A program made the translations under genes and the position numbers. The notes under the pieces were generated by a model, which saw nothing but the letters and a program-made list of their open reading frames with translations, was not told the DNA's origin and ran no database searches. From contig JAOAPG010000130.1 in assembly GCA_025462785.1 (NCBI GenBank), positions 1 to 42,061 of the forward strand: DNA of 42,061 nucleotides. Reading direction: 5' to 3'. Of this stretch, positions 10,746 through 40,950 are shown one piece after another. This DNA comes from Acidobacteriaceae bacterium. Its GTDB lineage: Bacteria > Acidobacteriota > Terriglobia > Terriglobales > Acidobacteriaceae. The stretch's first letter is position 1. Each line of letters begins with the position of its first letter.

Positions 10746-12776
10746 TCAATCACGAGCCTTCCAGGGCTTGCAAATATAGTCCCGAGGGCGGTTACCACCA
10801 TTGCAGCGCCTCCGTCCGCCTTCAGGCCGCAGGCCTTGTAGTTCTGCATGGAATTCCAGCAGCACTCTCGCGGCTTTGAGAGGTTCGCTGGCGTCTCCCT
10901 CATTACTTCGAGGAACCCTCTCATGAAGTTCCACCTGGTTGGGACACTGTTTGGCCACGTCATGAACGATGGCACCGGAAATTTGCCTCTCCCGCAAAGC
11001 GTGACCTCTGATGAGCGCGCGATCACAAATGAGATTGATCAAGCGCGGAATGCCCTGCGCGTAACAGTTAACGGCCGCGACGCCCTGATCGCTAAAGACT
11101 GGACTCGACTGTGGACCATCGAGGGCCAGCTCAATTCGGGAAGTGATATATTTGCCGGTTTCCGCCTGATCGAACGCCTGAAGTCGACAGTCAACTTCGA
11201 TTCGGCTCCGCAACTCCCGGAATTCACCCAGCATAAGGCTTTGCTCCACCTGTGGAGTCCCCATAACTACAATCTGCAGTTTTGCGTCCTGCACTGGTAA
11301 GGTCGCCAGGAGCTGAATTTCACGCCAGGTATTCAGCGAAAGCTCATGCGCTTCGTCTATGAATAGGACACCTTGGTCGGGTGGGTCATCCAAATCGGGT
11401 CTCTGTGCTGTTTGTAACTCGTCTCGTTGCGATTGCGACGGACTATTCGACTTCAAGATGTCACCCGGACGCAAATATTGGCCGGGCAGGTACTCGGCGG
11501 AGATGCCCGCGGATTTCAGCATCTCCACTAGGCAAGCGGACAGCAGGGTTTTCCCTGTTCCGGGCTCGCCGGTAAGCCGCATCACCCGCTCCTGCCGTAA
11601 AAGCCCCGAGTACAGATTTGCCAGTGCGGCCGAATGAGTTGACGTAAAGCACAGACATGCAGTGTCGGGCGAGGCATCGAACGGGGCTCGCTTAAAGTGA
11701 TAAAAGCGGATGTAGGAGTTTGAACCAGCGGCGTGGCGCTTCTCCATCCCGGCTGACGCAGTGCTTACGTGCTCTTTGTCGGCTGCCTCGGCCACATGCT
11801 TCCCTGCGTCTGGGTTCGGCCGAGCGACGTCGCCTGTAGTCTCAAGCGGTTGGAGATCCCCGATCACTTCTTGCAGAATGTCCGGATCCACACGCTCCCT
11901 ACCAACTGCGGTCAGCAACAGCAAGGCATTGAAGCAAATGGTATTGATCTCACGCGGCACGCCATGGCTTACTTCCCAGATACGTTTCAGTGCCGCCGGC
12001 GTGAACAGTGGCTGCCCGTGGTACCCGGCAATCTTGAGGCGGTGTTCGATATAGCTGTTCGTCTCATCCATATCAAGAGGTTGGAGGGTCTTAACGATCA
12101 AGATCCGTTGCTGAAGCTGTGCGAGTTCCGGCGCGGCCAGCTTTTTGGCCAGTTGCGGCTGCCCTGCCAACACGATTTGCAGCAATTTTTCAAAAGGAGT
12201 TTCGAAGTTCGACAGCAAACGCACGGCTTCGAGCACTGACGTACTGAGCGTTTGGGCCTCGTCGATAACAACAATCGTCCTACGACCCCTCCTCCGCTCT
12301 TGGATTAACAGTCGATTGATAGCATCCTGTACCTGGACCACATCTGAATCGTGCAATTCGCTCCCTAGTTCCAGCGCCAGATAACGCAGGAAGTCTCGTG
12401 CATCTCCCTGAAGCTGGAACAGAAATGCCGTATGGGCCATTCGCTTGAAGTGCTCCAGGACATCAAAGAGTATGGTTGTCTTGCCCATTCCCGGCGGCGC
12501 GATCAATGCCTGGAAACCCATCCCGCATTCAAGGCCCACAATCAGTGACGCTCGCGCCTCCGCATGGCTGCGGCTTAGATACAGGTAGCGCGGGTTGGGC
12601 GTGAATCCGAACGGATTGTCTTGAACCCCGAGCTTCTCAAAGACAATGCTCGCGCTTCCGAATGATGTTGTCGAGACATTCCGCTGCCGCAAACTGGCTT
12701 CATTTACAGCAGGCTGTGTTATGGCCGGCTGCGAGGACGGTGCGGATATCGGTCCTATTGAGATAAGCTTTGTCAC
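10746..12776 (-). CDS. Fused double AAA (ExeA/TniB-like secretion ATPase) protein
   Basis: 676 aa; two ATPase modules: APPGMGKTT...IVVIDEAQTL and GEPGTGKTL...VLFIDEAHEL, each preceded by a FxxxPFxxxP-type ExeA N-terminal signature. Confidence 0.85.
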   Translation of the reverse strand: MTKLISIGPISAPSSQPAITQPAVNEASLRQRNVSTTSFGSASIVFEKLGVQDNPFGFTPNPRYLYLSRSHAEARASLIVGLECGMGFQALIAPPGMGKTTILFDVLEHFKRMAHTAFLFQLQGDARDFLRYLALELGSELHDSDVVQVQDAINRLLIQERRRGRRTIVVIDEAQTLSTSVLEAVRLLSNFETPFEKLLQIVLAGQPQLAKKLAAPELAQLQQRILIVKTLQPLDMDETNSYIEHRLKIAGYHGQPLFTPAALKRIWEVSHGVPREINTICFNALLLLTAVGRERVDPDILQEVIGDLQPLETTGDVARPNPDAGKHVAEAADKEHVSTASAGMEKRHAAGSNSYIRFYHFKRAPFDASPDTACLCFTSTHSAALANLYSGLLRQERVMRLTGEPGTGKTLLSACLVEMLKSAGISAEYLPGQYLRPGDILKSNSPSQSQRDELQTAQRPDLDDPPDQGVLFIDEAHELSLNTWREIQLLATLPVQDAKLQIVVMGTPQVEQSLMLGEFRELRSRIEVDCRLQAFDQAETGKYITSRIELALDGPQSSPVFSDQGVAAVNCYAQGIPRLINLICDRALIRGHALRERQISGAIVHDVAKQCPNQVELHERVPRSNEGDASEPLKAARVLLEFHAELQGLRPEGGRRRCNGGNRPRDYICKPWKARD

Positions 12777-12832: not shown

Positions 12833-14116
12833 TCAACGGACCTGCGTCTTCCAAAACTTCTTTTTCCCCTCTTGAGGCGATACAACTGCAACTATGTTTC
12901 TGCGGGTACGCAAAGACCTCCCTAGCAGGCGCCTTCCTAATTCGACGATACGGTTTATCGAGAAGGGTAATAGCGGTAATAGATCGTCCTTTGCAAGGTA
13001 CGCCATTTCGTCAATGCCTCGAAGTGAGTGAAGCCATTCTCTGACAGTTATATTTCCCTCCCTGCGGTAACGATAAGTGGATACCAGGTCGAGATCTTCA
13101 GCAATCCACTTGCGGCCGGGCACGATAGTAGCGGATGGTAATGGCTGTTTTGTAAGATCCAGATAAAGGGCACGCACGACGTCCATTCCGTTACTGGCAG
13201 CAAAAAGGCGAAAGGTTGCACCTATTCGTGGGTTAATATCTAAAACCTTATATTGCCCATCACGAGCATCATAGCGATATCCAATGTCAAGGATCCCTCT
13301 ATATCCGATGCTTTTCATAAAACGCCTGGTGGTGTTCTCAACCTCTTCATTTGGAAGGCAAATTCCCAGACTCGTCGAACCCGTATGCACTGGACATTGC
13401 CGAAGCTTCTTCCCAGTGAATCCGGCTAAGCAATCCGACTCGGCATTAAAATACCCGTTGAACATCCAGACTGTATCGTCCCCACCTGGAATATATTCCT
13501 GAATCATTAGATTTGGACATTGCGGGTCCTCAGCGGCCTCGTAGGCCTGCACGAGCTCGCGTCGGCTTGAAGCTACAAACATCTTCTTTCCAGTTCGTTT
13601 CCAGAGGCGGAAGCCGTCAATTCCTTTGAGCATAACCGGGAACAAAGCTCGCTCAACAAACTCCAACACATCTTGTTTTGATTCTGGAAAAACAGCTTCC
13701 GGAGTTGGAATGCCATGTTTCTTTGCCAGAAAGAACATTTCTTGCTTGCTTGACAGAGCGTAAACCAAAGCGGCGCTTTGGTCTGGGAGCAGGAACACAT
13801 CTCGTAGCTGAGTGACGTTCTCCGCAACGAAGATGGCCGCTTGATCAGTGGTGGGAATAAGTATCGGGCGGCGTCGAAGGGTGCGGCTTAGGTCGTGTAA
13901 AAACTCAAGAGTCTCTCGAGTGGTATGTTTCTCCATGTCCCAGGTGGTGTTGCCACGACAGTGTCTAGAAAACGCACAAGGAACAAACACATGTGGATCA
14001 ATGCAATATACAGGTACTCCCATTCGTCCAAGGCTTCGGGCAATGCCTAACGGCCCATGGTCCTTCGACATTAGTATTAGGACCGGTGTTGAGGTGTCCT
14101 TGATGTGCATTCGCAT
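12833..14116 (-). CDS. ATP-grasp carboxylate-amine/thiol ligase
   Basis: 427 aa; TTDQAAIFVAEN, FPVMLKGIDG, MIQEYIPGGDDTVWMFNGYF, KVLDINPRIGATFRLF. Start codon overlaps the upstream ComB stop (TAATG). Confidence 0.85.
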   Translation of the reverse strand: MRMHIKDTSTPVLILMSKDHGPLGIARSLGRMGVPVYCIDPHVFVPCAFSRHCRGNTTWDMEKHTTRETLEFLHDLSRTLRRRPILIPTTDQAAIFVAENVTQLRDVFLLPDQSAALVYALSSKQEMFFLAKKHGIPTPEAVFPESKQDVLEFVERALFPVMLKGIDGFRLWKRTGKKMFVASSRRELVQAYEAAEDPQCPNLMIQEYIPGGDDTVWMFNGYFNAESDCLAGFTGKKLRQCPVHTGSTSLGICLPNEEVENTTRRFMKSIGYRGILDIGYRYDARDGQYKVLDINPRIGATFRLFAASNGMDVVRALYLDLTKQPLPSATIVPGRKWIAEDLDLVSTYRYRREGNITVREWLHSLRGIDEMAYLAKDDLLPLLPFSINRIVELGRRLLGRSLRTRRNIVAVVSPQEGKKKFWKTQVR

Positions 14117-14844
14117 TACCTAACGCTAAGGAGTTCGTCGCTGACTGCAACAATCTCGTGGTTGTCAACAGTGCACACCGACTTGACATCGTTGATGTTC
14201 GAGAGAATGAAGTGGAGATCGTCGAGCTGGTTGGTATTCTTTAGATACTCGACACTGTTACTAACGAGGAAGGCTGTGAGTGGCAGCTTCCGCCAGCGCT
14301 GAATAAGCATGGCTGTGCCTTCATCTCCCGGTGTGTGACCGGATCTCAGGATTCGCGCAGCAATCCGGGCGCAACACAGCTGGTCTTCTTCCCGAAACTC
14401 TTCTCTGCTGCCTGCGCCAATAACGGCTACTCTCTCGTGATTGGCAGCAACATAACTTGCAACTGCGGCGTAGTTCCGGAGGCAGGCGATGTACACGGCT
14501 GGGGCGACCTGTGCGTTGTGGATGAGCTTCGTTCCCGAGCTCGAGAGGACGATCACAGGGCGGTCCACGTCCGTGCGTCCAGCCAGTTTTGCCGGACTGT
14601 TGTTCATATCGAAAAGCGCTGGCATCTCTCCTGCGACTTCACCCATCAGCAACGGATTGGGCAGGCGTTCGGCCAACAGATACGCATCGTCGAGGGATGC
14701 AACAGCGAAGCAGCGACGACCGAGTGCAAGCGCAGTCACAAGAGTCGTGGTTGCGCGAATCACATCCACCGCAATTACCGCGAATCCCCGTTCACCGTAT
14801 TTGGCAGCACTGTCGGGTAGATAATCGATACACACTGTTTTCAC
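14116..14844 (-). CDS. comB: 2-phosphosulfolactate phosphatase (ComB family)
   Basis: 242 aa; VIAVDVIRATTTLVTALALGRRCF, LMGEVAGEMPALFDMNNSPAKL, VLSSSGTKLI match the ComB family pattern; adjacent to ComA-like gene. Confidence 0.82.
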   Translation of the reverse strand: MKTVCIDYLPDSAAKYGERGFAVIAVDVIRATTTLVTALALGRRCFAVASLDDAYLLAERLPNPLLMGEVAGEMPALFDMNNSPAKLAGRTDVDRPVIVLSSSGTKLIHNAQVAPAVYIACLRNYAAVASYVAANHERVAVIGAGSREEFREEDQLCCARIAARILRSGHTPGDEGTAMLIQRWRKLPLTAFLVSNSVEYLKNTNQLDDLHFILSNINDVKSVCTVDNHEIVAVSDELLSVR

Positions 14845-14880
14845 GTTTGTCTCCTGTACTACGTGCTCGCGGCATTGGCA

Positions 14881-15708
14881 TCAAGCTGATCGCTGACCAG
14901 CAGCGCGGGGCCGCAAATTGTCTTTCGCAAAGGCGTCGGAGTGCAGGCCACGCCTGTAAATTTCGACGCGCAGAAGCTCCTCAAGCCTGACATTGCAGAG
15001 ATGGACCTGGGGACCAAAATGGTCCAACAATGCGAATTGGCTGGGCTTATTTGGCGCTTCGAACATGACTGTGGGAAGTCCGAACGCGTTCATGAACCGA
15101 TCAGCAAATTCAGGATTGAAGTCGCCCTGCTCATTGAACAATCCGACCCCGCGAGCGCTCTCCCTCGCCTCCACTACCAATTGGACTGCGCCCGCATCCA
15201 GCCATCTCTTCCCCTGGTCGATCAAGATTTCGACGACGTCCTCACTAAAAGCTCCCCCGTGCTTTTTCCCAAGCTCAAACTGGACTTCGAGGCCTCTTTC
15301 GCGAGCCATGTTAACGACCTGGGTGGGCGAGAGGTGAAGAACCGAAAAACCTTCGCCTGCTTCCATGCGTGTCACGCCCAGTTCTGCGCACAGATCCAAA
15401 TATGCAGGTAGCTGTTTCTGTGCTACTGCGATCTCAAACGGCCCGCCCCCCGTGACAGTCGGGACCGCATGTCGCCGTGCTGCGGCCAGCTTGCGTTGCG
15501 TGGCCGTTTCTTTCGCGATCAGCCAACATGCCATTGAGATCTTGAGAATTGACATCAAATGCGAACTTTGCTCGAGGTGGCTTTCTACGGTTGCAGGGTC
15601 ATAGCCTGGATCGAATGGACTGGTGCAGGCTGGCAGGTGGGCGACACCTATTAAGTCGAGATAATCATGGGTGTGTAGTTCCTGGCGGATCAGATGTGTG
15701 TTGGACAT
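14881..15708 (-). CDS. comA: Phosphosulfolactate synthase (ComA family)
   Basis: 275 aa; HLMSILKISMACWLIA...TVTGGGPFEIAVAQKQLPAYLDLCAELGVTRMEAGEGF...VQFELGKKHG...WLDAGAVQLVVEARESARGVGLFNEQGDF...MFEAPNKPSQFALLDHFGPQVHLCNV. Confidence 0.82.
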   Translation of the reverse strand: MSNTHLIRQELHTHDYLDLIGVAHLPACTSPFDPGYDPATVESHLEQSSHLMSILKISMACWLIAKETATQRKLAAARRHAVPTVTGGGPFEIAVAQKQLPAYLDLCAELGVTRMEAGEGFSVLHLSPTQVVNMARERGLEVQFELGKKHGGAFSEDVVEILIDQGKRWLDAGAVQLVVEARESARGVGLFNEQGDFNPEFADRFMNAFGLPTVMFEAPNKPSQFALLDHFGPQVHLCNVRLEELLRVEIYRRGLHSDAFAKDNLRPRAAGQRSA

Positions 15709-15886
15709 TATCGTTAAGACCTCCTTGTCTCATGTTCACATTGGCACCGATATGGACCTTGGTACACGATGCCGCGCACTGTAACTCTCTATCAGTGGCA
15801 CACGTACCGCTTGCGCTGGCGGTATCTGTATTTCTAAATAGATGAGGATCCAGAATTATGGCGCAATCCACAACGCCCGTTCGGCT

Positions 15887-17263
15887 CTAGTTCTTATTGG
15901 CCGCTGGTTCTGTACACACCATAGTGGACTCAGCGTCAGCAGACTGTGACACACTGCAGCTGTGAAGTTCGAGGCACTGCAGGGGTGAACATGGATAGAG
16001 AAATACTCTAAGACGGCGTTTGGGCTGTTGCTCGTGACTGACGGCCTTTATAACCTCTTGCCACGAGGAAACCACATTGATGCCAGCTACTGTGGCCGGC
16101 AATTGTGCGGCGCGATTGTCCGGGCAGTACAACCAAATTGGGTTCGGCGACGTCCTTCTCTGGCTCACAACCCTCCGCAGCACTCGCCGTGAACGACGCG
16201 CAACGGTTCTGATCATCTGATCAAGGCTCATGCGCGCGAATCGTTCCGCTTTCCGCCGTAAGGCGCGGAAATCATGGGGTGCTGTCAAGGGGAAAAGGTG
16301 GTGCTTGCCCACACCCTCGCTGCACGATGCTATAGCTATTCGAGAGACACCGGGAAGAGCGGAGCGCTGCAGGGGGGTCATCCCCTTCATCTGCGCGAAA
16401 GTCAAGCTTGCATCATTCGGATACGCATTGCTCAGAATCACATCTGCCACGTCGGGAGCGGGAGCTGTGTACATCTTTCGCCACGATGCCACGGCGTCCG
16501 GATGGTAAGACAAATAGTCGCCGGAGTACATGCAAACAACTTCTCGGTCTGCATTAATAAGGAGAGAGATCATTGTCGTGACGTGAAGCAGTCGCGCAAT
16601 CTCATCCAGGTCCCTGCGGAAGTTGCTCGCTCGCGTATCACCCCATCCAATGCTGGCATGGCGAGAGTGCAACCGGGTGATAGATTGCCCTCCCAGTACT
16701 CCTAACACGAGTTTGGAGCCTCCACCGAATCCCGCCGTGTGGTTGGGGTAAACACCTCCTATTCCGAATACAAAATCCCCAGCCACAACCTCCTTGTTAA
16801 CGGTCACTGGGGTGCCGAAACTGGTGGTTCCGATCGTGACAAGACCATTGCGATGATCATGAGGAATTACGCGACACTCGGCCGCCGCCTCAGCGCCAAC
16901 CTTCTTGAAGATACCGTCTGCGGTAATTGAAGCGTGCATCCCGGACGCCACTACAATGGTCACGTTCCTCAATGAGACTCCCGCATCTCGCAATTGTGAT
17001 AGGACGAACGGCATGATTCGAGAGACGGGGGTTGGCCTGTTTAGGTCATCAACGATGATGACCGGACGCATTCGTCCGGCACAAAGCCGCCGCAGGGGCG
17101 CTTGGTTGGTGGGACACTCAAGGCACGCGGTGATCTGATCGTCGCTGAGCAGAGGTGGAGTTTGCGGCCAGAAAACATCCACTTCCCATTCGTCCGGGAC
17201 CGGCAAGTCGAGCAGGCGATCGCCATACCAAGCAGCCGTTCGCAGTTGAAAAGCGGGTGACAT
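15887..17263 (-). CDS. LarA-like nickel-dependent 2-hydroxyacid racemase (DUF2088 family)
   Basis: RPVIIVDDLNRPTPVSRIMPFVLSQL, TIVVASGMHAS, GGVYPNHTAGFGGGSKLVLGVLGGQSITRLHSRHA; start placed at 17263 (MSPAFQLRTAAWYGDRLLDLPVP). Confidence 0.8.
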   Translation of the reverse strand: MSPAFQLRTAAWYGDRLLDLPVPDEWEVDVFWPQTPPLLSDDQITACLECPTNQAPLRRLCAGRMRPVIIVDDLNRPTPVSRIMPFVLSQLRDAGVSLRNVTIVVASGMHASITADGIFKKVGAEAAAECRVIPHDHRNGLVTIGTTSFGTPVTVNKEVVAGDFVFGIGGVYPNHTAGFGGGSKLVLGVLGGQSITRLHSRHASIGWGDTRASNFRRDLDEIARLLHVTTMISLLINADREVVCMYSGDYLSYHPDAVASWRKMYTAPAPDVADVILSNAYPNDASLTFAQMKGMTPLQRSALPGVSRIAIASCSEGVGKHHLFPLTAPHDFRALRRKAERFARMSLDQMIRTVARRSRRVLRRVVSQRRTSPNPIWLYCPDNRAAQLPATVAGINVVSSWQEVIKAVSHEQQPKRRLRVFLYPCSPLQCLELHSCSVSQSADAESTMVCTEPAANKN

Positions 17264-17273
17264 TTGTTTTACT

Positions 17274-18113
17274 TCAGTTCTTTTTTTGTGCGAGTACGAT
17301 GTATTGCGAGCCGGTCGAGCGCAGCAGAGGCGTGTTCCGGTCGGCCAAACGCTGTAAAGCGTTGTGTACTCTGATGCCGAAAGAGCCGGACAGCAGTTCG
17401 CGTCGAAACAGCGAAAAAGGCCCAAAACCCAGCGTCATTCCGTCAACCTTCAGGTATCCCGCAGTGTTAAGAATCGCGTCAAACTCTCTGATCGAGCATC
17501 TCTGAGTCCCTGGTCCCCGCTGATTGCGGCGTAAAGTCCGTAGCTTTGTTCTTATAGATGCGTGCAGCGGATTAAGCCTGGGATCCAGGAACTCGTTAAG
17601 TCGCCACCGATTGTCAATATTGGTGATCAGATATCCGTTAGCTCTAGTTGTTCGGGCGATCTCATCGATTGGGCGTTGCAAGGACCTGAGCCATGGCAAT
17701 ACACCGATCGCCAATACAAGGCGGAAGTGACTGCTGGGGCATCCCAGGTGATTAATGTCGGCCGGGTAGACTGTCACACGCTCAGCGACACCACACTCGA
17801 GCGCGCGTGCTCGGGTGAATTCCAGCATCTGGTCAACAGTATCGACAGCGTGGACCCTATAGCCCCGACGTGCTAGTGCGACGCTGACCCTACCAGCGCC
17901 ACATCCAGCATCAAGCACTAGGCTGTCCGGTGGCAGGGATAACTTGTCCACCATAGCCAGGATTATCGCCTCGCGCTGTTGATGGATCACTGAGTAGATA
18001 TCTTTCTTCGAATAGATACTGTCCCATTCGCGGGCAATAGCCTGAAAGTAGGAATCGAGCCGACGTTGCTGCTCGTCGGCGGCTGGCGAATACCTAACTC
18101 GGCTCAGACTCAT
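17274..18113 (-). CDS. Class I SAM-dependent methyltransferase
   Basis: LVLDAGCGAGRVSVALARRGYRVHAVDTVDQMLEF; ORF extends to 18341 but conserved part starts near 18113. Paralog of 40102-40917. Confidence 0.82.
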   Translation of the reverse strand: MSLSRVRYSPAADEQQRRLDSYFQAIAREWDSIYSKKDIYSVIHQQREAIILAMVDKLSLPPDSLVLDAGCGAGRVSVALARRGYRVHAVDTVDQMLEFTRARALECGVAERVTVYPADINHLGCPSSHFRLVLAIGVLPWLRSLQRPIDEIARTTRANGYLITNIDNRWRLNEFLDPRLNPLHASIRTKLRTLRRNQRGPGTQRCSIREFDAILNTAGYLKVDGMTLGFGPFSLFRRELLSGSFGIRVHNALQRLADRNTPLLRSTGSQYIVLAQKKN

Positions 18114-18473: not shown

Positions 18474-18561
18474 AGTGATCTTCTCTCCTGGTCCCCATGA
18501 CCTTATGGTGAAGGCACACCCCCGCTCCCTGGCAGTGGTGAAAAAGGAAATGGAGCTTTTA

Positions 18562-28120: not shown

Positions 28121-29443
28121 TCAGGCGATCGATTGTATCCCCGACCATTTCGCTGCATTTGCACTGTTTTCGATTCCGGGTCCAAGCGAGTGGTTAGGGG
28201 CAGTTGCCGCAAAACTGACAGGCAGTGCGGTCAGGCCGCGCAGACCCAAGTTTGGCCGCCATTGCAGCGGTATCGGAGCCAATGCCATCTCCGGAGCACA
28301 GCGCAGCAATGTTTCAAAAGCAATATGAGCCTCCAGGCGGGCCAATGGTGCCCCGAAGCAAAAGTGAGGTCCGCCCCCGAAGGCCAAGTGCTTGTTGCCG
28401 CTGCGAGTGATGTCGAGGCGGTCAGGTTGCGAAAATTGCTCAGGGTCGCGGTTGGCCGACCCCATAACCGCAATCACTGATTGTTCCTTCCCGATTCGCC
28501 TACCCCGAAGTTCTACATCATGGGGCGCCAGGCGGGTTGTGTGCTGACTGGGCGCTTCGTATCGGAGTAGTTCCTCCATTGCGGTAGGGATCAGCGGCGG
28601 CTCGCTTCGTAGTTTTTCGAGTTCTCCCGGGTTTTTGAGCAGGGAGAGCATACCGTTACCGATCAGGTTGGGCGTGGTTTCCTGGCCGCCCACCATGACC
28701 AGAATGCAGTTGGCGATAATGACTGCATCGTCGAGGTGCACTCCGTAAATGCCAGCGTTCAGGAGTGCGGTGATCACGTCCTGCCTCGGACGTGCCCGGT
28801 GCTCTTCCAGAGCGTTGCGGAAATAGGCAATCATTTCCTGCAGGCTTTTCAGCATCTTCGCGTCGCGATCAGGGTTGTGCTGAAAGTTACCCAGGATTTC
28901 GGCGAAGTCGGCAGACCACAACTTGAGCTGTTCATGGTCTTCGGGTGGGACCCCCATTAGTTCTGCGGTCACGATTGCGGGCAAGCGGTTGGCGAAATCA
29001 CCGAGGATATCCATGCTGCCGGCTGCTAACCGGGGCCGGAGCAGGTCATTCACAATGTCCTGAATGTGCTCGCGAAGGCGTTCCAGCAGGCGCGGTTTGA
29101 ACATGCCCGCGCAGACCCCGCGCAGACGCGTATGGTCCGGGGGATCCATGAAGAGCATCTGCAGGACCATGACATCAGCAATAGGCTTGATGGAATCTGC
29201 GCCCATTTGGATCAGCCGTTCCGGGCACGGTGCGCATTTAGCCGAGAAGTTTTGCAGCACGAACAATACGTCCGAATACTTGGTGACGACCCACGCATTC
29301 AGGAATGGATCCCAATGAACAGGATCCTCATCTTGCAACCGGTGATAAAGCGGGTAAGGATAGGCCAGAATGTCCGGATCGTACAAATGGTAGAGGCTGA
29401 GACTGGGATCAGTATTCAGTCCGGTGTAATTGGCAACGGTCAT
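28121..29443 (-). CDS. Cytochrome P450
   Basis: 440 aa; I-helix MVGGQETTPNLIGNG, ExxR-type EELLRYEAPSQHTTR, heme loop LAFGGGPHFCFGAPLARLEAHIAF. Confidence 0.95.
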   Translation of the reverse strand: MTVANYTGLNTDPSLSLYHLYDPDILAYPYPLYHRLQDEDPVHWDPFLNAWVVTKYSDVLFVLQNFSAKCAPCPERLIQMGADSIKPIADVMVLQMLFMDPPDHTRLRGVCAGMFKPRLLERLREHIQDIVNDLLRPRLAAGSMDILGDFANRLPAIVTAELMGVPPEDHEQLKLWSADFAEILGNFQHNPDRDAKMLKSLQEMIAYFRNALEEHRARPRQDVITALLNAGIYGVHLDDAVIIANCILVMVGGQETTPNLIGNGMLSLLKNPGELEKLRSEPPLIPTAMEELLRYEAPSQHTTRLAPHDVELRGRRIGKEQSVIAVMGSANRDPEQFSQPDRLDITRSGNKHLAFGGGPHFCFGAPLARLEAHIAFETLLRCAPEMALAPIPLQWRPNLGLRGLTALPVSFAATAPNHSLGPGIENSANAAKWSGIQSIA

Positions 29444-29519
29444 GTGCGGACCCCGCGAATTTGACGCGAATGTTGTTTGTGCGCTGGTTGCATTTGGCGC
29501 TTGCGAGTCTGGCTACCCG

Positions 29520-30680
29520 TCAATACAGGCTCCCATCGCCGTCGAAAGATGATGGATTCCATGCAGCCGGATCCAGTAGGGCTTCCGACAATCCCTTTTT
29601 GTCGGCTTTGTACTGAAACATCCAATTGGGAAGTTGACGAGCAAAAGGGGCATGATCTTCCAGGCTGATAGCGCTGTAGTTCTGCACGCCGATATTCTCC
29701 AGGACGTGGATTCCTTCGCGTCTGCAACATCCCAGAGCCCAAGACATCATCGCCGGCAGAGCGCCGGTTTCGAGTTCCTGGAAATCCGTCAACCGTACGC
29801 GCTTCAGACCGATCCGCTCGTTGTCAAATCGCATGAAAACGGCATAAGCCACAATTCGACTGCCGTCTTTCGCGGTTACGATCCAGGCGCGCTTTTCCGC
29901 GAGCACATGCTTGAAGTGCCACTGCAGCGCTATTTTGCTATGCTCGGCGAGAAGGCGATCCGGATAGCGCAGTTTCAATTCTTGCCAGAACACGTCAAAG
30001 TCATCATTAAAGCCCTCAGCAATGTCTAACTGGAATTTGCTATGGCTCTTGAACGCCGGTCGGCGTTTGTTGGCCAACAGGATGGCTGCGCTTAGGGGCA
30101 AGCTCAAAAGCCTCGGGTGTCGAGCGTTGCGCGATGCCAGAACGCTTTCCGCAAAACCACGAGGATCCGTGACCCAGAATACCGCCCGATCCCACCTACC
30201 GGCCGGCACTCTTCTAGTGCCGAACGAAGAATAAGCATCTACTGCGATTTTCTTCAGGGTGGCATTGATAAAGAGATCCACACCTTTCTGGCTGAAATGC
30301 TCCGCCATCAGCAGGACCGAATAGCTTCTGTAGTGTTGATCTACGACCCAGCAACGTCCCGTGGCTACCAGAAGCCGCTCGCCGCGAAAATAGTAATTCA
30401 GGGGAATGTTTCCTAAGTAGCCGACGATGTCGCCGGCCTCGTTCTGGAGGACCCAGCCAATCGGCCATTCACCCTCGAGCGCGTTGTAAACAGGGTTCTC
30501 AGTCCAGAGATGTTTCCAAGCGGCAAGGGGCTCGAAATTAAGCGAATGGCGCTCGGCGAGGTCTACGAGCTGTCCATGGTCCTCAAAACGCGCCTCGCGA
30601 ATGCGAGGCACCGAAGAGAACCAACCGCGTCCAGCCTCCATTGTCGGAACCGGATACACTGTAGGTACAGCCGTCTGCAT
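29520..30680 (-). CDS. GNAT-like acyltransferase protein
   Basis: RIREARFEDHGQLVDLAERHSL...GWVLQNEAGDIVGYLGNIPLNYYFRGERLLVATGRCWVVDQHYRSYSVLLMAEHF; start placed at 30680. Confidence 0.65.
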   Translation of the reverse strand: MQTAVPTVYPVPTMEAGRGWFSSVPRIREARFEDHGQLVDLAERHSLNFEPLAAWKHLWTENPVYNALEGEWPIGWVLQNEAGDIVGYLGNIPLNYYFRGERLLVATGRCWVVDQHYRSYSVLLMAEHFSQKGVDLFINATLKKIAVDAYSSFGTRRVPAGRWDRAVFWVTDPRGFAESVLASRNARHPRLLSLPLSAAILLANKRRPAFKSHSKFQLDIAEGFNDDFDVFWQELKLRYPDRLLAEHSKIALQWHFKHVLAEKRAWIVTAKDGSRIVAYAVFMRFDNERIGLKRVRLTDFQELETGALPAMMSWALGCCRREGIHVLENIGVQNYSAISLEDHAPFARQLPNWMFQYKADKKGLSEALLDPAAWNPSSFDGDGSLY

Positions 30681-30735
30681 TAATTTTGCCTCCGCGAACG
30701 AGCACAACGGGTGCGACGTACAAATTCCATGCGGA

Positions 30736-32607
30736 TCACGCCATTTTTCTGGTACCACTTGCCATGCGGGAGCCCAGGATGTGTTCGACCGCAGCGGATA
30801 ATTGGGCTGCGTTTGGGGTCTCGAAAAGCTGCTTCAACGAAACTTCCACGCCGAATGTGCTGCGCAATTTCGCCAGCACATGTACTCCGAGAAGCGAATG
30901 GCCACCCAGAAGGAAAAAGTTGTCGTTGCGGCCAATACTCGGAACACCTAGAACGTTGGCCAGAATACTCGAGACGCGCTTTTCGACATCGGTTTCCGGG
31001 GCGACGTACGAACGGTCGCGAATCGTATTGTTCTCATCGGGAGCGGGGAGTGCCGTGGTGTCGGTTTTCCCATTCGGAGTAAGCGGAAGAGAATGTGTCC
31101 TGACGAATATAGATGGACACATGTATTCAGGCAGCAGAGCGCGTAAGTGTGAATTCAACGATGTGGCTGTAATATTCTCCCCGGCCAATGGCACCACATA
31201 GGCGACTAACGACTTGTTGCCCCCATGGTCTCGGGCTACAACGGCACTCTCCCGTACCGTAGGATGTGTGTTCAAGGCGGCAATGATCTCATTGGGCTCG
31301 ATCCGGAATCCGCGGATCTTGATCAGCTGATCGATTCGCCCCAGGAATGCGATCTGACCATCGGGCAGGTAGCGACCCTGATCCCCGGTGCGATAGAGGC
31401 GCGCTTGCGGATCGCCGCTGAATGGGTCCGGCACGAAACGGGCGGCGGTGAGCTCAGGGTGGCGGCGATATCCCCGTGCTACTCCGGCGCCGCCGATATG
31501 GATTTCGCCGGCTTCACCGGGCGCAACGCGACGCATATTTTCGTCCAGGATATAAACTCTGCATCCATCGATGGCGTAGCCAATAGGCGGCAGAGTTTTC
31601 GTGCTGCCATTCTCTGGAGGCACTCTGGACGACGTCGAGACCACTGTGCACTCGGTAGGGCCATAATTATTGATCAACGCGAATGGGAGGGCTGCAGGAG
31701 GATAACGGTGCAGGACATCCGCACCGGTAAGCATGAGGCGCAGGGGCGTACGTTTGGGCCAGGGTAACGCAATTAATTGTTCCGCGAGCGCGGTCGGGAC
31801 AAACGTAACGGTGATGCAATGGGACACCAGCCAATCGCGGAGCGCTTCAGGCGAAATGCGAACTTCTTCATCGGCCAGGTGAACACTTGCGCCCGCCGAG
31901 AGATACGGCCAGAGTTCCCACACGGCCGCGTCAAAACCGATGCTGGCCATCTGTGTCGCCCGATCCGCCGGCGTGATTTCAAAGGCGCGATTATGCCAAT
32001 TGACAAGGTTCAACAGGTTGCGATGCGTTACCTCGACGCCCTTCGGCTTGCCCGTCGAACCGGATGTGTAAATCACGTAGGCGAGATCGTCTGCAGTGGC
32101 AATCTGGGGTGGAACTTCCGATTGGAAATTTCCGGCTGAGGGAAAGTCACGTTGAACGACAACGGACCGCCAAGGGCCGGAAGGCAAGCTCTGGGCCGTG
32201 CACAGATCCGTGATCACCACCGGTACCTCTGCATCCTCGAGCATGTAAGCGATACGGTCCCGAGGATATCCTGGATCCAAGGGTACGTATGCCCCTCCGG
32301 CTTTCAGGATAGCCAGTGCCGCCGCCACCATAACGGTCGAAGGCCTCAGGAAAATGCCGGCCAAGAGATCAGGTCCGATACCCAGCAAACGCAAGCGCAA
32401 CGCGAGGTAATTTGAGCATTGGTCCAGCTCAGCAAATGTCATTTGCTGCGAACCGCATCGCACCGCCATTTCGTGCGGCCGTAATTTGCCCTGGGCAACT
32501 AACAAATCGGGGATGGTGGGAATGTCGCGACCGGCACCTCGCATGTGCGTGTCGAGACCGGGTGATATTGAGAGCAGACTCTGCTGCAGTGTGGACGCTT
32601 CCGACAT
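30736..32607 (-). CDS. Stand-alone NRPS adenylation-PCP didomain protein
   Basis: AYVIYTSGSTGKPKGVEVTH, NNYGPTECTVVSTS, RLYRTGDQGRYLPDGQIAFLGRIDQLIKIRGFRIEPNEI, LPLTPNGKTD; PCP motif NFFLLGGHSLLGVHVL. Hand-extracted code DAWFLGNVVK. Confidence 0.93.
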   Translation of the reverse strand: MSEASTLQQSLLSISPGLDTHMRGAGRDIPTIPDLLVAQGKLRPHEMAVRCGSQQMTFAELDQCSNYLALRLRLLGIGPDLLAGIFLRPSTVMVAAALAILKAGGAYVPLDPGYPRDRIAYMLEDAEVPVVITDLCTAQSLPSGPWRSVVVQRDFPSAGNFQSEVPPQIATADDLAYVIYTSGSTGKPKGVEVTHRNLLNLVNWHNRAFEITPADRATQMASIGFDAAVWELWPYLSAGASVHLADEEVRISPEALRDWLVSHCITVTFVPTALAEQLIALPWPKRTPLRLMLTGADVLHRYPPAALPFALINNYGPTECTVVSTSSRVPPENGSTKTLPPIGYAIDGCRVYILDENMRRVAPGEAGEIHIGGAGVARGYRRHPELTAARFVPDPFSGDPQARLYRTGDQGRYLPDGQIAFLGRIDQLIKIRGFRIEPNEIIAALNTHPTVRESAVVARDHGGNKSLVAYVVPLAGENITATSLNSHLRALLPEYMCPSIFVRTHSLPLTPNGKTDTTALPAPDENNTIRDRSYVAPETDVEKRVSSILANVLGVPSIGRNDNFFLLGGHSLLGVHVLAKLRSTFGVEVSLKQLFETPNAAQLSAAVEHILGSRMASGTRKMA

Positions 32608-33635
32608 GGTATGAATCCTTTTGAAGAAATAGGCAGCCACTTCCTGGCATCGCAGACAGCGGAACCTGATCGCTGTGCTTGGCCCGTGCCAATGGGCTGC
32701 TGGTATGCTGGTGTGCGTTGACTTGATGAGGTAATTCCGCGCTTTTCCATTCGGGACCGGTATAAGTCACCGTTGGTGACGCGTTTGAGCGCAAACTGGC
32801 TGATCACCTTGAACAGCGCCTCGAGTCTGTCCCACTCGCCGTGTTTGTCAATTTCCCAGCTGTGCAAATAGAGATGGGCAATTCCGCCGTTGCGAGAGAC
32901 GTGCTCCAGAGCGCAAACAAACTGAGAGGCCCAGCCGGTTCGTGCTTTGAATGTGGTCAGAAGATTGTAGGCTCCTTTGAGATTACCTTCCAGAAAAGCG
33001 TGCCGAAGCTGGATGTACACAGGGTACGTGTTGGCGTACGTACTGAGCCCCCAGAGAAAAGGATTCTCTGGGAAATCGGTAAGGTTAAACATGCATGTGC
33101 GCGCGCCGAGAAAGCCGGCCTCCTTCACCTGTTCGGCAATATGGCGGCTGAACTTGCCTCCGGGGTAACAGAAAGACACGACTTCATGACCCAGTGTGTC
33201 TTGCATGAAGTTTTTGCCGTCGCAAATCTCCCGCCAGCCCTTGTCAGCTGGGATCCTGGTCAACCGCACATGGTTGAGTGTATGGCTACCAACCTCGCAA
33301 TGGCGGTCGATTTCCCTGATCTGGGACGCCTTCATCACCTGCCGCTCGGCGTTCGCGCCCGGGATATAGAAGGTCGCTTTGAGATCGTATTTCAATAGCA
33401 GATCGAGGCATCGGAGATCTAACGGGTGTCCGTCGTCCACACTGAGGGTTACGTATTTCTCCCCAGTGTTGATATCTGCCGTAGGAACAGCTTGCCACGG
33501 CTGTGTGACATTCATATACATTCTCTTGGAAAGTTCGCGGCAGGTGATATTGGTTCGCGGATAAGTGCGCGCTTGCTCCCTAGCGGCGCGTGGAATTCTA
33601 TGTGTAAGATGCCGGTATTGAGGTCGGGTGTTCAT
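32499..33635 (-). CDS. NodB-type polysaccharide deacetylase
   Basis: YVTLSVDDGHPLDLRCLDLLLKYDLKATFYIPG, CEVGSHTLNHVRLT, VSFCYPGGKFSRH, HLYLHSWEID. C-terminal ~85 aa look unrelated and overlap the next gene. Confidence 0.87.
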   Translation of the reverse strand: MNTRPQYRHLTHRIPRAAREQARTYPRTNITCRELSKRMYMNVTQPWQAVPTADINTGEKYVTLSVDDGHPLDLRCLDLLLKYDLKATFYIPGANAERQVMKASQIREIDRHCEVGSHTLNHVRLTRIPADKGWREICDGKNFMQDTLGHEVVSFCYPGGKFSRHIAEQVKEAGFLGARTCMFNLTDFPENPFLWGLSTYANTYPVYIQLRHAFLEGNLKGAYNLLTTFKARTGWASQFVCALEHVSRNGGIAHLYLHSWEIDKHGEWDRLEALFKVISQFALKRVTNGDLYRSRMEKRGITSSSQRTPAYQQPIGTGQAQRSGSAVCDARKWLPISSKGFIPCRKRPHCSRVCSQYHPVSTRTCEVPVATFPPSPIC

Positions 33636-33645
33636 AACACGAGAG

Positions 33646-35064
33646 TCAAGGATTGGCTCTCGAGCCGCTTTCGATCAGAACGGGCTTTGCTCCAATCTGG
33701 ACGACGTGATTTGCTGGAATTGCAGCTGTGTTACCGCTCAGGTCCTTAACGATTTGAAACTCACTACCTACCTTGTGCGGCATGGTTGCGCACGTTTCTC
33801 CCGAACAGGCCTGCGAAACACTCCCATTCCGCGGCTCATGAGTACTGTCGTTGCTCGTGTTCCATAGGATCAGGGCCTTTTGGCCGTTTGCTCGCAGCAA
33901 CGAGCATTCATATACAGGGTCAGAATGAGTGCAAGCCCCGGTAAAGCGGGCTCCCAGTAGCCAGTGGATGAGTTCGTTGTAGGTTCCATCCTGTCTCCCA
34001 ATTGTGCTGAACCAATACCAGTCGATTTCTTGGGCCCCGTATGCGAATTGCAAAATAAGCCACCGCGCCAAGAAGGCGTCACATTCGTCGTCTGTAGCGC
34101 CTTGATTCAGGGGACAATCGTAGGGCGTAAATGGACCGGAGCCCAGAAAGCCGGTTTCCGTGTTGATCCAAGGCGTAGTAGTCCAGCCAGCTTGATTCTT
34201 TTTGGCTACCATTGGCGTGACGATCGCAGCAAATCTTCGCTCTGGGAGATCGCTTACTGGTTTCCAAATCGAGCCCGGACCGATGTAGGCGTGGAATCCA
34301 AAAATGTCCGAAAGCCGCCCGTTCGTATTTTCCTGGGCCAGCCATTCATCCATCCAGGATGGATTCACCGCCAGGAAAGGAGCGGGAGTTGTGATGCTCA
34401 CACCCGGAACATTAGCGCGAATGATGCCTACGGACGGTTTGACCATCTCGTATAACTGTTGAACCGTACCACTCCAGTAGGGGGGGGCATTGGGTTCGTT
34501 CCAGAGTTCAAAATACTTAATGTAATCCTTCACGCAATGACCGGCGGGTGAACAATGCTTCGTCAGTGCGGTTACGAAAGCATTGAAGGACGGACTGCCA
34601 TGAGCGGTCAAATCGAGCGGCGGATTAGGCGAGCCTCGAGAATTACATTTAGGTCTAACATTCCAGCAGGGCACCCGATTGAAGGTGAACAAAACGGCGC
34701 GTGGTTGATGGGAAGCTATAGCGTCCAGCCAGAGGTCAAGATTAGTCCATTTATAGATGCTCGGGTCCGGCTGTAACCGGTGCCATGTCGTGCCGCTGTC
34801 ATGCAACCGTATGGTGCCTGGCTGAGAAACAGTTGTGATCCATTTTGCATTCTGGCAGGTGCCGGGGTTGTCAAAATTGCAGGCGAACCCAAAGTCGGTC
34901 AGCTGAATTGGATCGGTTGATGGCAGTGGTGCTGTGCTTTGCGCACCCGCGAAAAAAGTGCTTTGGGCGACAACTACCCCCCATATTGCAGTCGATAAGG
35001 CACATTGCAACATACGATTCTGTGTCGGCCTGATCGCGTATGCTTGCAAGAATGCCGCAAACAC
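33646..35064 (-). CDS. Secreted GH-A clan glycoside hydrolase-like protein, paralog of 18562-19842
   Basis: CSPAGHCVKDYIKYFELWNEPNAPPYWSGTVQQLYEMVKP and TTPWINTETGF closely parallel the 18.5 kb copy. Confidence 0.77.
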   Translation of the reverse strand: MFAAFLQAYAIRPTQNRMLQCALSTAIWGVVVAQSTFFAGAQSTAPLPSTDPIQLTDFGFACNFDNPGTCQNAKWITTVSQPGTIRLHDSGTTWHRLQPDPSIYKWTNLDLWLDAIASHQPRAVLFTFNRVPCWNVRPKCNSRGSPNPPLDLTAHGSPSFNAFVTALTKHCSPAGHCVKDYIKYFELWNEPNAPPYWSGTVQQLYEMVKPSVGIIRANVPGVSITTPAPFLAVNPSWMDEWLAQENTNGRLSDIFGFHAYIGPGSIWKPVSDLPERRFAAIVTPMVAKKNQAGWTTTPWINTETGFLGSGPFTPYDCPLNQGATDDECDAFLARWLILQFAYGAQEIDWYWFSTIGRQDGTYNELIHWLLGARFTGACTHSDPVYECSLLRANGQKALILWNTSNDSTHEPRNGSVSQACSGETCATMPHKVGSEFQIVKDLSGNTAAIPANHVVQIGAKPVLIESGSRANP

Positions 35065-35068
35065 CCGA

Positions 35069-35917
35069 TCACGCCGCCTTGGTCACAGCGCTCTCGTGCG
35101 CCTCGAGCACTCTCACTTCACGGTGGTGGAATTTCAGGGCGAAAAAAGGCATCTTGAACATCTTTAGTGTTCGCGTGAACCTTCGCCTCGGTTCGCTAAT
35201 CAATCGGAACAGCCATTCCGCTCCCGCGGTTTGAACCCACTTGGGCGCGCGCCTCTTGGTCCCGGAAACAAAGTCCAGAGTCCCGCCCATACCGTAAGCG
35301 CAGCGGACTCCCAGCCTCAAAAGGGAATCGGCATTCTGCGCTACCCACATCTCCTGCTTGACTGGGCCGAAACAGACAACGAGGTGCGCGGGGCGAAAAC
35401 GCGCGATTCTTTTCAGGATCGCGTCGTTCCATTCTTGATGGTGAATGCTTGAACAAAAAGCAGGAGCGTATCCCTCGATCAGCAAACCAGAGCAGCGTGC
35501 CTTCAAAATCTGGACTGCCTTGCGGTTACAAGCTTCTTCAGCGCCAAGCAAGAAGAGCCGTTCACCATGTTTCATCGCGTGGTCTGCCAGGTCATAAATG
35601 AAATCAGAGCCGGATAGTTTCTCTAAGTTTCGTCCGGCGTAAAACAGTGAACACAACAGCTGAAGAATCCGCCCATCGATCGTGTTAATGGTCTGATTCA
35701 AGATTGTCTGGAATGCCGCATTCTCGTGCGCATACACGAAGATTTCGCTATTCACCGTCACGATTTGCCTCAGCTGGAAGCTGCTACTCGATAGCAGCTG
35801 ATCAACGGGCATCGAATAGAGCAATACCTTTCCCAGCCGCACCGCACACGCATGATTGGCGGAACTGGAAGGAGTAGCCCGAACGGTTCTCTGTTTAGGA
35901 GATAACACCAGCTTCAA
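35069..35917 (-). CDS. WecG/TagA/CpsF-family glycosyltransferase (GT26)
   Basis: SDFIYDLADHAMKHGERLFLLGAEE, HLVVCFGPVKQEMWVAQN, RCAYGMGGTLDFVSGTKRRAPKWVQTAGAEWLFRLISEPRR. Overlaps upstream GT by 4 bp. Confidence 0.88.
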   Translation of the reverse strand: MKLVLSPKQRTVRATPSSSANHACAVRLGKVLLYSMPVDQLLSSSSFQLRQIVTVNSEIFVYAHENAAFQTILNQTINTIDGRILQLLCSLFYAGRNLEKLSGSDFIYDLADHAMKHGERLFLLGAEEACNRKAVQILKARCSGLLIEGYAPAFCSSIHHQEWNDAILKRIARFRPAHLVVCFGPVKQEMWVAQNADSLLRLGVRCAYGMGGTLDFVSGTKRRAPKWVQTAGAEWLFRLISEPRRRFTRTLKMFKMPFFALKFHHREVRVLEAHESAVTKAA

Positions 35918-37185
35918 TCGGTGTGAAGTTGCTCGTTCACGAATGCCTCAGCGCACTTGCTCGAGCTGCGAACTGCAATATGATTCGCAGACCCATCGTG
36001 GCGACGAGTTGCGCGGCTCTTCTCGATCACCTGCTTGAAAATGGTCTCAAGGGATGAATAGCGAAAGCGAAGATCGTATTGATGTTCAGCCACGGCTCTT
36101 GCCTGTCTCCCCATCGTCGCGATCTCGACAGGATGCTCATACAACCAGCGCACGCTGGCCGCTAAATCGCCCACATTCTGCGCTTCGACTAGCAATCCCG
36201 TTTGTTGGTGCCGAATGATGTGCGGCAGGGCACCAATGTTGGAGGCCACCACGGGCTTGCCGCTTGCGAATGCCTCCAGGACAACTATGGGGAAGTTCTC
36301 GTAGCAATGTGACGCGACGATAGTGAAGAGGCTGTTTCGAAGGTAGTCTTTCTTTTCCTGCCCGTTTTTGAAGCCTACGAGCTCGATATTAGAGAGCCCG
36401 TTGCGGTGGATATACTCGCGTAATTCACCCTCGGCGTCTCCGCTCCCCACAATTTTCAACGGAACATGCGGAAGCTGTTTGAAAGCCGCGGCGACCGTGA
36501 GCACACCTTTGTCACGGTACAGACCGCCGAGGTACAAAACGTATTGACCTTTACCGAACTGTGGAGCGTAGGCGGAGGTATCGAGGTGGTTCGGGCAAAT
36601 ATAGATTCGGTCTTCCGGTATTCCCGACTCCAGCAACAAGGATCTCGCAAACTCGGTCAGGCAGATATAACCACCGATCTTGCCCATCAACCCCAGCCGC
36701 CGGTTCAGGTACAGTGATGCGGCATACAAGCCACTGTAGGCGGCACTGTCGCGGAAACAGCGCTTGCGCACCGCTCCCCAGTAGTTTCCAAGCTTGCAGG
36801 ATTCACAAATTTGATTGTTGATGTAGAAGCGCGAATTCGCACACCACAGGCGAAAGTCGTGAATGATATGAACACTGGGGATACCCAGTTGATGGAGTAC
36901 GTGGTACAGCGATGGCGAGATGAGGGGAAATACGTTATGCACATACGCCACGTCAGGGCGAAAATGCCGCGCCAACTCCGTAATCTCACGGACCGTACGT
37001 CGCGAGTACAGGGCATCAACCCCCAACGTCACGCGTTCCCACCGCCCGGCGGAGTCGATCTCGCCACTATGCCGCGTATAGCTGAGCACAGGGCCGTGTT
37101 CTGCCAGGAGGCGCTCGTCTGCTTGAGCCACGCCGTCTGATCCGCCATACTGTTGGAACTGGTTATGAACGCAGAGAATGTGCAT
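35914..37185 (-). CDS. GT4-family glycosyltransferase
   Basis: HILCVHNQFQQYGGSD, YVLYLGGLYRDKGVLTVAAAFKQL, PIVVLEAFASGKPVVASNIGALPHII. Confidence 0.9.
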   Translation of the reverse strand: MHILCVHNQFQQYGGSDGVAQADERLLAEHGPVLSYTRHSGEIDSAGRWERVTLGVDALYSRRTVREITELARHFRPDVAYVHNVFPLISPSLYHVLHQLGIPSVHIIHDFRLWCANSRFYINNQICESCKLGNYWGAVRKRCFRDSAAYSGLYAASLYLNRRLGLMGKIGGYICLTEFARSLLLESGIPEDRIYICPNHLDTSAYAPQFGKGQYVLYLGGLYRDKGVLTVAAAFKQLPHVPLKIVGSGDAEGELREYIHRNGLSNIELVGFKNGQEKKDYLRNSLFTIVASHCYENFPIVVLEAFASGKPVVASNIGALPHIIRHQQTGLLVEAQNVGDLAASVRWLYEHPVEIATMGRQARAVAEHQYDLRFRYSSLETIFKQVIEKSRATRRHDGSANHIAVRSSSKCAEAFVNEQLHTD

Positions 37186-37199
37186 GGGACGTGAATCGG

Positions 37200-38267
37200 C
37201 TACAACGCTTTATCGTCTGTTTGCTTTTGTGTCGCCCGGTAAAGTACGTACTGTCTGTCGCCATATTTCAGAAAACGATATGCCTGCCAAACGGAAATCG
37301 GCGAAATCGAATACGCAACTCGCGGCACCTCGTCGATGATCCGCAACATCCCGACCAGGAGGCGGTCCGTAAATCGCTCCCAGGCTCCCGCTTTAGGACT
37401 CCTGCATTCGGAAAGGCGTTGACAGAGAAGCCACTCGCAATCATCAGCTTTCCAAAGAGCTTTGTAGCGCCGGATTTTATGTGCGAGCCGCGGCGGAAGT
37501 GCTCCGGGGCGCTTCTGCAGAGAGACGATCTTGCTGCCGTGGGCCATGGCGTGGTGAGCGCCATCGAAGAGTGCGGAGCGATCTACTCCATCGAGGACAG
37601 TGATTGCCGGGACAAATGGGATTTGCAGGAACTCGCAAATGCCGTTCATTGTGGTGGTTGTTTTCTCCACGAGGTCCTGATAATGGATTTGGTGGACGGG
37701 AACCCCGGAGTCTCTAAGCGTGTCACATTGATTTTTCAAGATCTCGCACGCCAATATTGCCCGAAGAGTCATTCCTGGCCGGGAAAACCAGCTGGAGTGG
37801 GGGGCGGCCTCCATGACACTCCGACAAATCTCCTCCGGATCGCGCCAAATTACGATGAAGCGTGCATTGGGAAATTCGCGAGCCAAATAGACCAGCCGGT
37901 CATAGTACGATGGCGACTTACAACCCCATATGTGTGCGCCCTTTCTTCGGGCGTATTCTCGGCCGGCGACCTCGGCGGCCTCGGCCAGAGTAGTAAGCGG
38001 CACTGCGATGCGCTGTGGATCAAGATGGTGTCGGCTCACCGCTGAGTTCCAATATTCCCACTTCTCAACCCACTTTTTCCGGCTATAGCTGATTGCAAAC
38101 ATGGGCCACAGCACCGGGAGGTCGCCTTCATAGAACAGCGCAATCTCGGGATGCTGATTCAGAAGCAGCTGCAATAGCGTAGTGCCGGAGCGCCACACGC
38201 CAACAACGAACAGCGGCAACCCACAACGACGATCAGCAGTACAGATCTGCCCTGGTAGAACACTCAC
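37200..38267 (-). CDS. Sulfotransferase family protein
   Basis: LPLFVVGVWRSGTTLLQLLLNQHPEI (PAPS-binding loop), FIVIWRDPEEICRSVMEA; GTG start proposed at 38267. Confidence 0.82.
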   Translation of the reverse strand: MSVLPGQICTADRRCGLPLFVVGVWRSGTTLLQLLLNQHPEIALFYEGDLPVLWPMFAISYSRKKWVEKWEYWNSAVSRHHLDPQRIAVPLTTLAEAAEVAGREYARRKGAHIWGCKSPSYYDRLVYLAREFPNARFIVIWRDPEEICRSVMEAAPHSSWFSRPGMTLRAILACEILKNQCDTLRDSGVPVHQIHYQDLVEKTTTTMNGICEFLQIPFVPAITVLDGVDRSALFDGAHHAMAHGSKIVSLQKRPGALPPRLAHKIRRYKALWKADDCEWLLCQRLSECRSPKAGAWERFTDRLLVGMLRIIDEVPRVAYSISPISVWQAYRFLKYGDRQYVLYRATQKQTDDKAL

Positions 38268-38271
38268 AAGC

Positions 38272-39828: not shown

Positions 39829-39889
39829 GTTTGACTTCTAGTACTGATATGCAGCTCGCTCGCTGCGGCAGGTCACGCTGCGTCGCGTT

Positions 39890-40087
39890 GGGGGTTCGCT
39901 GTTAGAATAGGCGCTCGCCGGGGCGAAAGGATCGGTTCGCCTGTCGTGACGCGGGTGCCACTATTGCGTCGCAGTAACCACAGTTGCGATCAGATAACTA
40001 GCCAAGTTCGCCAGCGGCATTGCCGATATCAAGCCAACAATATCGAAGTGTTTTGCTGAAGGGACACCAATCGCCAGGAAGCTGCCG
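39890..40087 (-). pseudogene. Duplicated, degenerate 3' end of the flippase gene
   Basis: gtcgtgacgcgggtgccactattgcgtcgcagtaaccacag(t)tgcgatcagataactagccaa matches 41059-41125 nearly exactly, with a one-base insertion; similarity continues with mismatches to about 40087. Confidence 0.8.
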
Positions 40088-40101
40088 CTTGTTGCGGAAA
40101 A

Positions 40102-40917: not shown

Positions 40918-40950
40918 GCCATCGACACCGCCGCTGGAAAGCTGTTCCGT

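Follow-up and report, generated by a model that had tools for sequence, protein, structure and literature searches.

A conserved ComA-ComB and ATP-grasp gene cassette, possibly for sulfolactate synthesis and ligation, in bacterial polysaccharide loci

Introduction

Sulfonates are believed to account for much of the organic sulfur in soils, and little is known about the organisms that make them. For Bacillus yitC/yitD, free sulfolactate has been proposed in spores; in B. subtilis, yitC encodes the partner ComB and the pair yields sulfolactate. ComA and ComB also catalyze the opening two steps of archaeal coenzyme M synthesis, where they give (R)-sulfolactate (PMC5695019). Here we describe an operon in which relatives of both proteins sit beside genes for an ATP-grasp ligase, a methyltransferase and a LarA-like protein within a polysaccharide locus. 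It lies on contig JAOAPG010000130.1 (assembly GCA_025462785.1) of an Acidobacteriaceae bacterium; the window, by which we mean the whole stretch of 42,061 nucleotides analyzed, is this entire contig, and the genome is 69% complete. Our best explanation, whose chances we put as even, is a conserved cassette for the synthesis and ligation of sulfolactate or a sulfolactate-like acid, probably decorating surface glycans. It is well supported that genes predicted to make sulfolactate or a close analogue through ComA and ComB occur mostly in polysaccharide loci, often beside an ATP-grasp gene, the chemistry being read from the protein families. The cassette is apparently undescribed: the first-pass annotation, made from the sequence alone, knew of no system with such a gene set, and in the open full-text literature (subscription papers lying mostly outside this scope) we likewise found nothing relevant joining phosphosulfolactate or sulfolactate with ATP-grasp enzymes or polysaccharides.

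A conserved ComA-ComB cassette

The operon consists of five open reading frames (ORFs) on the minus strand between positions 12833 and 18113, in the order methyltransferase (MT) > LarA-like > ComA-like > ComB-like > ATP-grasp, which is how the first-pass annotation had laid them out (lengths in amino acids, aa):

17274..18113, minus strand: S-adenosylmethionine-dependent MT, 279 aa, refined start ATG 18113 (Pfam Methyltransf_11, 3e-16)
15887..17263, minus strand: LarA-like nickel-pincer-nucleotide (NPN) protein, 458 aa, refined start ATG 17263 (Lar_N, 1.3e-40)
14881..15708, minus strand: ComA-like phosphosulfolactate synthase of a distinct clade, 275 aa (PF02679, 8.9e-44)
14116..14844, minus strand: ComB-like 2-phosphosulfolactate phosphatase, 242 aa, GTG start (PF04029, 1.8e-38)
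12833..14116, minus strand: ATP-grasp ligase, 427 aa (fold match; CPSase_L_D2, 7e-6)

Gaps of 10 bp (MT/LarA), 178 bp (LarA/ComA) and 36 bp (ComA/ComB) separate the genes, and the ComB and ATP-grasp ORFs overlap by 1 bp. A scan for sigma-70 promoters gave no match.

When one genome of each species was scanned, a search that detects close relatives only, 35 further loci were found to encode a ComA of the same clade at 60-77% identity, a tightness that is partly a sampling effect because of this limited reach. By the titles of their records, from which the phylum names are taken, the carriers of these module loci span at least seven bacterial phyla: Acidobacteria, Ignavibacteria, Proteobacteria (with Bradyrhizobium elkanii among them), Gemmatimonadetes, Nitrospirae, Chloroflexi and Actinobacteria; most are uncultured metagenome-assembled genomes (MAGs), and the nearest named ComA relatives come from Acidobacteria/Terriglobia MAGs. 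Two loci (L032, L033) are short archaeal MAG contigs, possibly mis-binned, and no archaeal occurrence is claimed. ComB lies directly downstream of ComA in 29 of the 32 loci with room for it and 30 of 32 module loci also carry an ATP-grasp gene (within 1.1 kb in 24 of these), which argues that the operon is not a chance arrangement. Among 151 relatives, six carry a ComA of this clade and exactly those six carry ComB, the other ComA matches there (27-28% identity) being other ComA types. A phylum-level search of 396 genomes with the Pfam model returned no further clade member or intermediate. The conserved unit is ComA-ComB with the ATP-grasp gene, often with the MT. The co-occurrence survey suggested by the first-pass annotation thus upheld its pairing of ComA and ComB with an ATP-grasp gene, and frequently the MT, and left out the LarA-like gene, found in 3 of 36 loci. 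In the cultured strain Bradyrhizobium elkanii WSM2783 the order is MT, ComA, ComB, ATP-grasp and an enolase-superfamily gene, near Wzy, glycosyltransferase (GT) and radical SAM genes.

In profile searches, both family assignments hold at Pfam level. The ComA-like protein scores 150.2 bits against PF02679 (cut-off 25.2) and matches the solved ComA 1qwg/24fo at 2e-26; the ComB-like protein scores 132.4 bits against PF04029 (cut-off 26.4), with 2z0j, 2yyv and 1vr0 as solved relatives. Module ComA proteins form a single clade (support 100/99) that keeps 32 of the 58 positions invariant in canonical ComA, including the charged residues D20, K43, E79, E103, E133, K137, E168, R170, E171, E205, K209, E237 and R240 (Methanocaldococcus jannaschii numbering). 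These features point to a ComA-type addition to phosphoenolpyruvate (PEP) in a remodeled pocket, with sulfite as the likely nucleophile.

Several observations count against sulfite, and against sulfolactate itself. Both proteins fall under their equivalog cut-offs (ComA-like, 145.4 bits against archaeal TIGR03849, cut-off 280; ComB-like, 84.8 bits against TIGR00298, cut-off 175), and the stem leading to the module clade is very long. All or nearly all module members carry the changes G47A, T48C, S49W, T76G, S105G, D106E/Q, D138H and R244H, where D138 and some other labels give the most frequent letter among canonical sequences, from which M. jannaschii itself may differ. The canonical motifs FGxGTS and SDG are altered in all 32 members; their replacements, SMACW and GEG or GQG, are extremely conserved within the clade. 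From conservation we infer that the altered positions line the active-site pocket, so that nucleophile or product may differ from those of the sulfite route. The clade might then use another nucleophile and make a different 3-substituted lactate, via its 2-phosphate, for ligation by the ATP-grasp enzyme. We regard this as rather unlikely, though a serious contender: all candidate catalytic charged residues are kept, among them Lys137 and the ARES region, both missing from the HSA32-like clade, and the ComB partner is conserved with them. The retention of both features rules out an HSA32-like function for module ComA.

Three further ComA-family arrangements were seen. One family of the same phylum holds another clade (L085-L088) with KIAVGLS, SNN and EAAEL in place of the canonical motifs. 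On a Legionella lytica plasmid (L047, 2802-5714), a ComA-family domain ends a 970-aa protein, with an aminotransferase gene before it and ComB after it. In L043 (10001-10778) the ComA match is split in two, possibly by a frameshift or sequencing error.

Because ComA and ComB start the archaeal route (PMC5695019), the operon could in principle serve coenzyme M synthesis, a reading that we consider extremely improbable. The ComDE sulfopyruvate decarboxylase (TIGR03846) was found over the cut-off in 0 of 16 module genomes, the 69% complete window genome among them, and no homologs of Xanthobacter XcbC1/D1/E1 were found in module loci. Four module genomes that are 94-97% complete have no strong ComDE match; sub-threshold matches of 130-152 bits occur in four module genomes. 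On this evidence coenzyme M synthesis was rejected, in agreement with the first-pass annotation, which had seen no continuation of that route in the window.

The ATP-grasp ligase

Although the sequence match of the ligase is weak (CPSase_L_D2, 7e-6), its assignment is firm by predicted fold. The AlphaFold2 model (pLDDT, the predicted local distance difference test, 85.7) matches PurK, biotin carboxylase and the L-amino acid ligase 3vot in Foldseek, which confirmed the ATP-grasp fold and singled out no substrate. The metal-binding D/E-x-N-x-R motif is present, with D293, N295 and R297 invariant. An ATP-grasp gene beside ComA and ComB, as first proposed, is a real feature of the module loci. Tandem ATP-grasp genes follow ComB in two loci (L092, 12665-15123; L020, 11607-14158), and in the Ignavibacteria loci L014 and L016 a second ATP-grasp gene lies farther off with a FemAB-like gene.

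The ligase is separable from ComAB, which loosens the proposed coupling of synthesis and ligation. Strong ATP-grasp matches (at least 448 bits) among the 151 relatives occur in the six ComA-clade genomes and in one other, G070, which has the ATP-grasp gene without ComAB. Its locus reads UGDH, Bac_transf, ATP-grasp, flippase-like, APH-like kinase, Wzx and Wzy, with the ATP-grasp gene directly after the initiating transferase and MT-ComA-ComB missing. In L027, L028 and L037, homologues of G070 locus genes border MT-ComA-ComB-ATP-grasp, a comparison that marks MT-ComA-ComB as a unit that can be missing while the ATP-grasp gene remains. The opposite case is seen in L012 and L015, where ComAB occurs and the ATP-grasp gene is missing; GT and deacetylase genes stand at its place in L015. 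These cases rule out a strict tie to ComAB: the ATP-grasp gene is a frequent partner whose enzyme may use the ComAB product, and its link to sulfolactate is indirect. Free sulfolactate might then be the product, with the ligase an unrelated neighbor; the separability just described and the ComA-family gene of B. subtilis, our control, would fit. We consider this improbable, given how regularly the ATP-grasp gene accompanies ComAB across phyla.

The polysaccharide setting

Two further stretches of the window frame the operon:

10746..12776, minus strand: XrtA/PEP-CTERM system-associated ATPase (TIGR03015, 337.8 bits, cut-off 324.5), adjoining the operon
28121..41958, minus strand: remaining polysaccharide locus (Pfam/NCBIfam matches), context outside the core cassette

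By Pfam/NCBIfam matches, polysaccharide genes (Wzy, WecG, GT4, deacetylase and others) occupy much of 27-42 kb. The larger stretch encodes a P450, a nonribosomal peptide synthetase (NRPS)-like protein with adenylation and carrier domains (A-PCP), a polysaccharide deacetylase, a WecG-type GT, a GT4, a sulfotransferase, an O-antigen ligase/polymerase-like protein, a second MT and a flippase-like protein. Together with the TIGR03015 match over its cut-off, these genes confirm the exopolysaccharide setting put forward in the first-pass annotation.

The setting recurs elsewhere. Probing for GT, Bac_transf, UGDH, Wzx, Wzy, deacetylase and WecB, with each locus's own probes excluded, gave a polysaccharide match in 19 of 31 module loci and in 2 of 40 control regions taken from a pair of relatives (p ~2e-7); window-derived probes alone matched 9 of 31 and 1 of 40. 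Two points weaken the case for a glycan acceptor: the probes were drawn from module loci, which somewhat favors these loci and leaves the enrichment not fully independent, and polysaccharide genes were not seen near L029, L032 and L033. It is unlikely, in our view, though worth weighing, that the cassette makes sulfolactate but joins it to a small molecule, a lipid or a peptide instead. The loci without polysaccharide genes would agree with such an acceptor, as would an ATP-grasp fold with matches to both amino acid ligases and carboxylases, and the extra ATP-grasp and FemAB-like genes that follow in Ignavibacteria. It is opposed by the over-representation of polysaccharide genes and XrtA loci, and by the close ATP-grasp homologue of G070, which sits in just such a polysaccharide locus.

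Other features of the window deserve mention. The XrtA-associated ATPase has two AAA stretches, as if duplicated. Two sulfotransferase-family genes (27121-28029 and 37200-38495, minus strand) lie in the polysaccharide locus, so that sulfate esters may accompany any sulfonate. The gene for the stand-alone NRPS-like adenylation and carrier protein (30736-32640, minus strand) overlaps a polysaccharide deacetylase ORF, and the P450 gene is nearby at 28121-29443. A divergent, secreted-looking protein of 455 aa (18475-19842, plus strand) has no Pfam/NCBIfam match; its motif WNEANSPYYW suggests a glycoside hydrolase.

Accessory genes

The LarA-like gene is accessory and outside the core cassette: its presence in only the window, L011 and L015 rules it out as a core gene. 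Among NCBIfam models it matches the LarAH6 malate racemase best, at 196 bits against a cut-off of 500. The protein is closest to Mar2-type sequences (139 bits, malate racemase 6d6z) and scores 34-36 bits against the solved DUF2088/LarA-like entries 9q3j and 9q2u, which we take to be the single-His LarA group. It keeps the NPN-binding residues Arg76, Lys184 and His199 (numbered from ATG 17263) and the catalytic residues Asp73, His110 and Lys293, the equivalent of LarA H108 being retained. At the position of LarA His174, each of the three module copies has Asn, whereas Mar2 and nine non-module LarAs of relatives have His. Since the protein is nearest to Mar2-type sequences, with few bits to 9q3j and 9q2u, the swap probably arose independently of the single-His group. 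The cofactor could plausibly be made, as the window genome has a LarE-type gene (TIGR00268, 311.5 bits, cut-off 150) and LarC, the latter only as a C-terminal fragment. Structure prediction from three sequences reached a pLDDT of 59, too low to be of use.

The first-pass annotation had this protein possibly interconverting the stereoisomers of sulfolactate, an idea that found no support. (R)-Sulfolactate is L-configured, the sulfomethyl group outranking the carboxylate in Cahn-Ingold-Prelog order. Asn-type LarA enzymes may process D-enantiomers only, and one that was tested showed no lactate racemization (PMC12611868); LarA groups without H174 may not invert any stereocenter (PMC7583248). Racemization of an L-configured ComAB product is thus not predicted for an Asn174-type enzyme. 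Some role on sulfolactate or a related acid is thinkable, as the nearest characterized relatives are malate racemases and malate resembles sulfolactate.

An MT-family gene occurs in 19 of the 31 loci with upstream room, ending at most 300 bp from ComA in 13. A mandelate-racemase-superfamily gene follows the ATP-grasp gene in five loci (L023, L025, L035, L038, which is the B. elkanii locus, and L040), its closest solved relative being the putative dehydratase 2poz. The second MT of the window (40102-40917, minus strand), near the far end of the polysaccharide locus, is homologous to that of the operon.

Proposed pathway and significance

In the pathway that we favor, ComA would add sulfite, the most likely nucleophile, to C3 of PEP, and ComB would remove the phosphate to leave (R)-3-sulfolactate. 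The ATP-grasp enzyme would activate the carboxylate of sulfolactate as an acyl-phosphate for coupling to an amine or an acceptor like it, in the likeliest case an amino sugar or an aminoacyl group within the repeat unit, and the MT may place an O-methyl group on the hydroxyl or on a sugar close by. The LarA-like protein and the mandelate-racemase-superfamily enzyme are accessory. The gene set, the clade with its conserved residues, the linkage, the context and the lack of ComDE over the cut-off are direct observations, from which we infer sulfite as the nucleophile, ligation to a glycan and the methylation target. The most complete statement, that a widespread cassette adds (O-methyl-)sulfolactyl groups derived from PEP and sulfite to bacterial surface polysaccharides, is offered tentatively, as a possibility less probable than our best explanation.

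If true, ComA-type chemistry in polysaccharide loci would be one genetic source of polymer-bound sulfonate and a new glycan decoration, sulfolactyl groups being described for no polysaccharide in the literature found; it would give a biosynthetic origin to carbon-bonded sulfonate in the extracellular polymers of soil and sediment bacteria. The analysis further sets apart a ComA clade whose pocket is changed and a Mar2-like LarA that has one catalytic His; both enzymes lend themselves to direct tests, and since B. elkanii WSM2783 carries the cassette, a genetic test is possible in a cultured soil strain.

Comparison with known systems

B. subtilis YitD (1u83) is likewise a bacterial ComA-family protein, distant from module ComA (63 bits), and we know of no ATP-grasp gene or polysaccharide locus for YitD/YitC. 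In Xanthobacter autotrophicus Py2 (L046), another bacterium, the coenzyme M genes also include one for a ComA-family protein, but there fumarate-lyase-like and pyridoxal phosphate-type genes follow, which module loci lack, and ComB is not among the listed neighbors. Mar2 (6d6z) and single-His LarA share the NPN-binding residues and one catalytic His with the LarA-like protein; the single-His LarA of Blautia/Streptococcus (PMC12611868) has the same His-to-Asn swap, whereas Mar2 has His. XrtA/PEP-CTERM exopolysaccharide loci share with the surroundings of the cassette the XrtA-associated ATPase, UGDH, Bac_transf, NusG-like, Wzy and GT genes; a minority of them hold ComAB, and G070 is a locus of the same kind without it. 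The archaeal ComA/ComB pair of M. jannaschii (1qwg) resembles the cassette in its families, two-step order and charged residues including Lys137, while the module stands apart as a separate clade with altered pocket motifs, with ATP-grasp and MT genes in place of ComDE, and in a polysaccharide setting.

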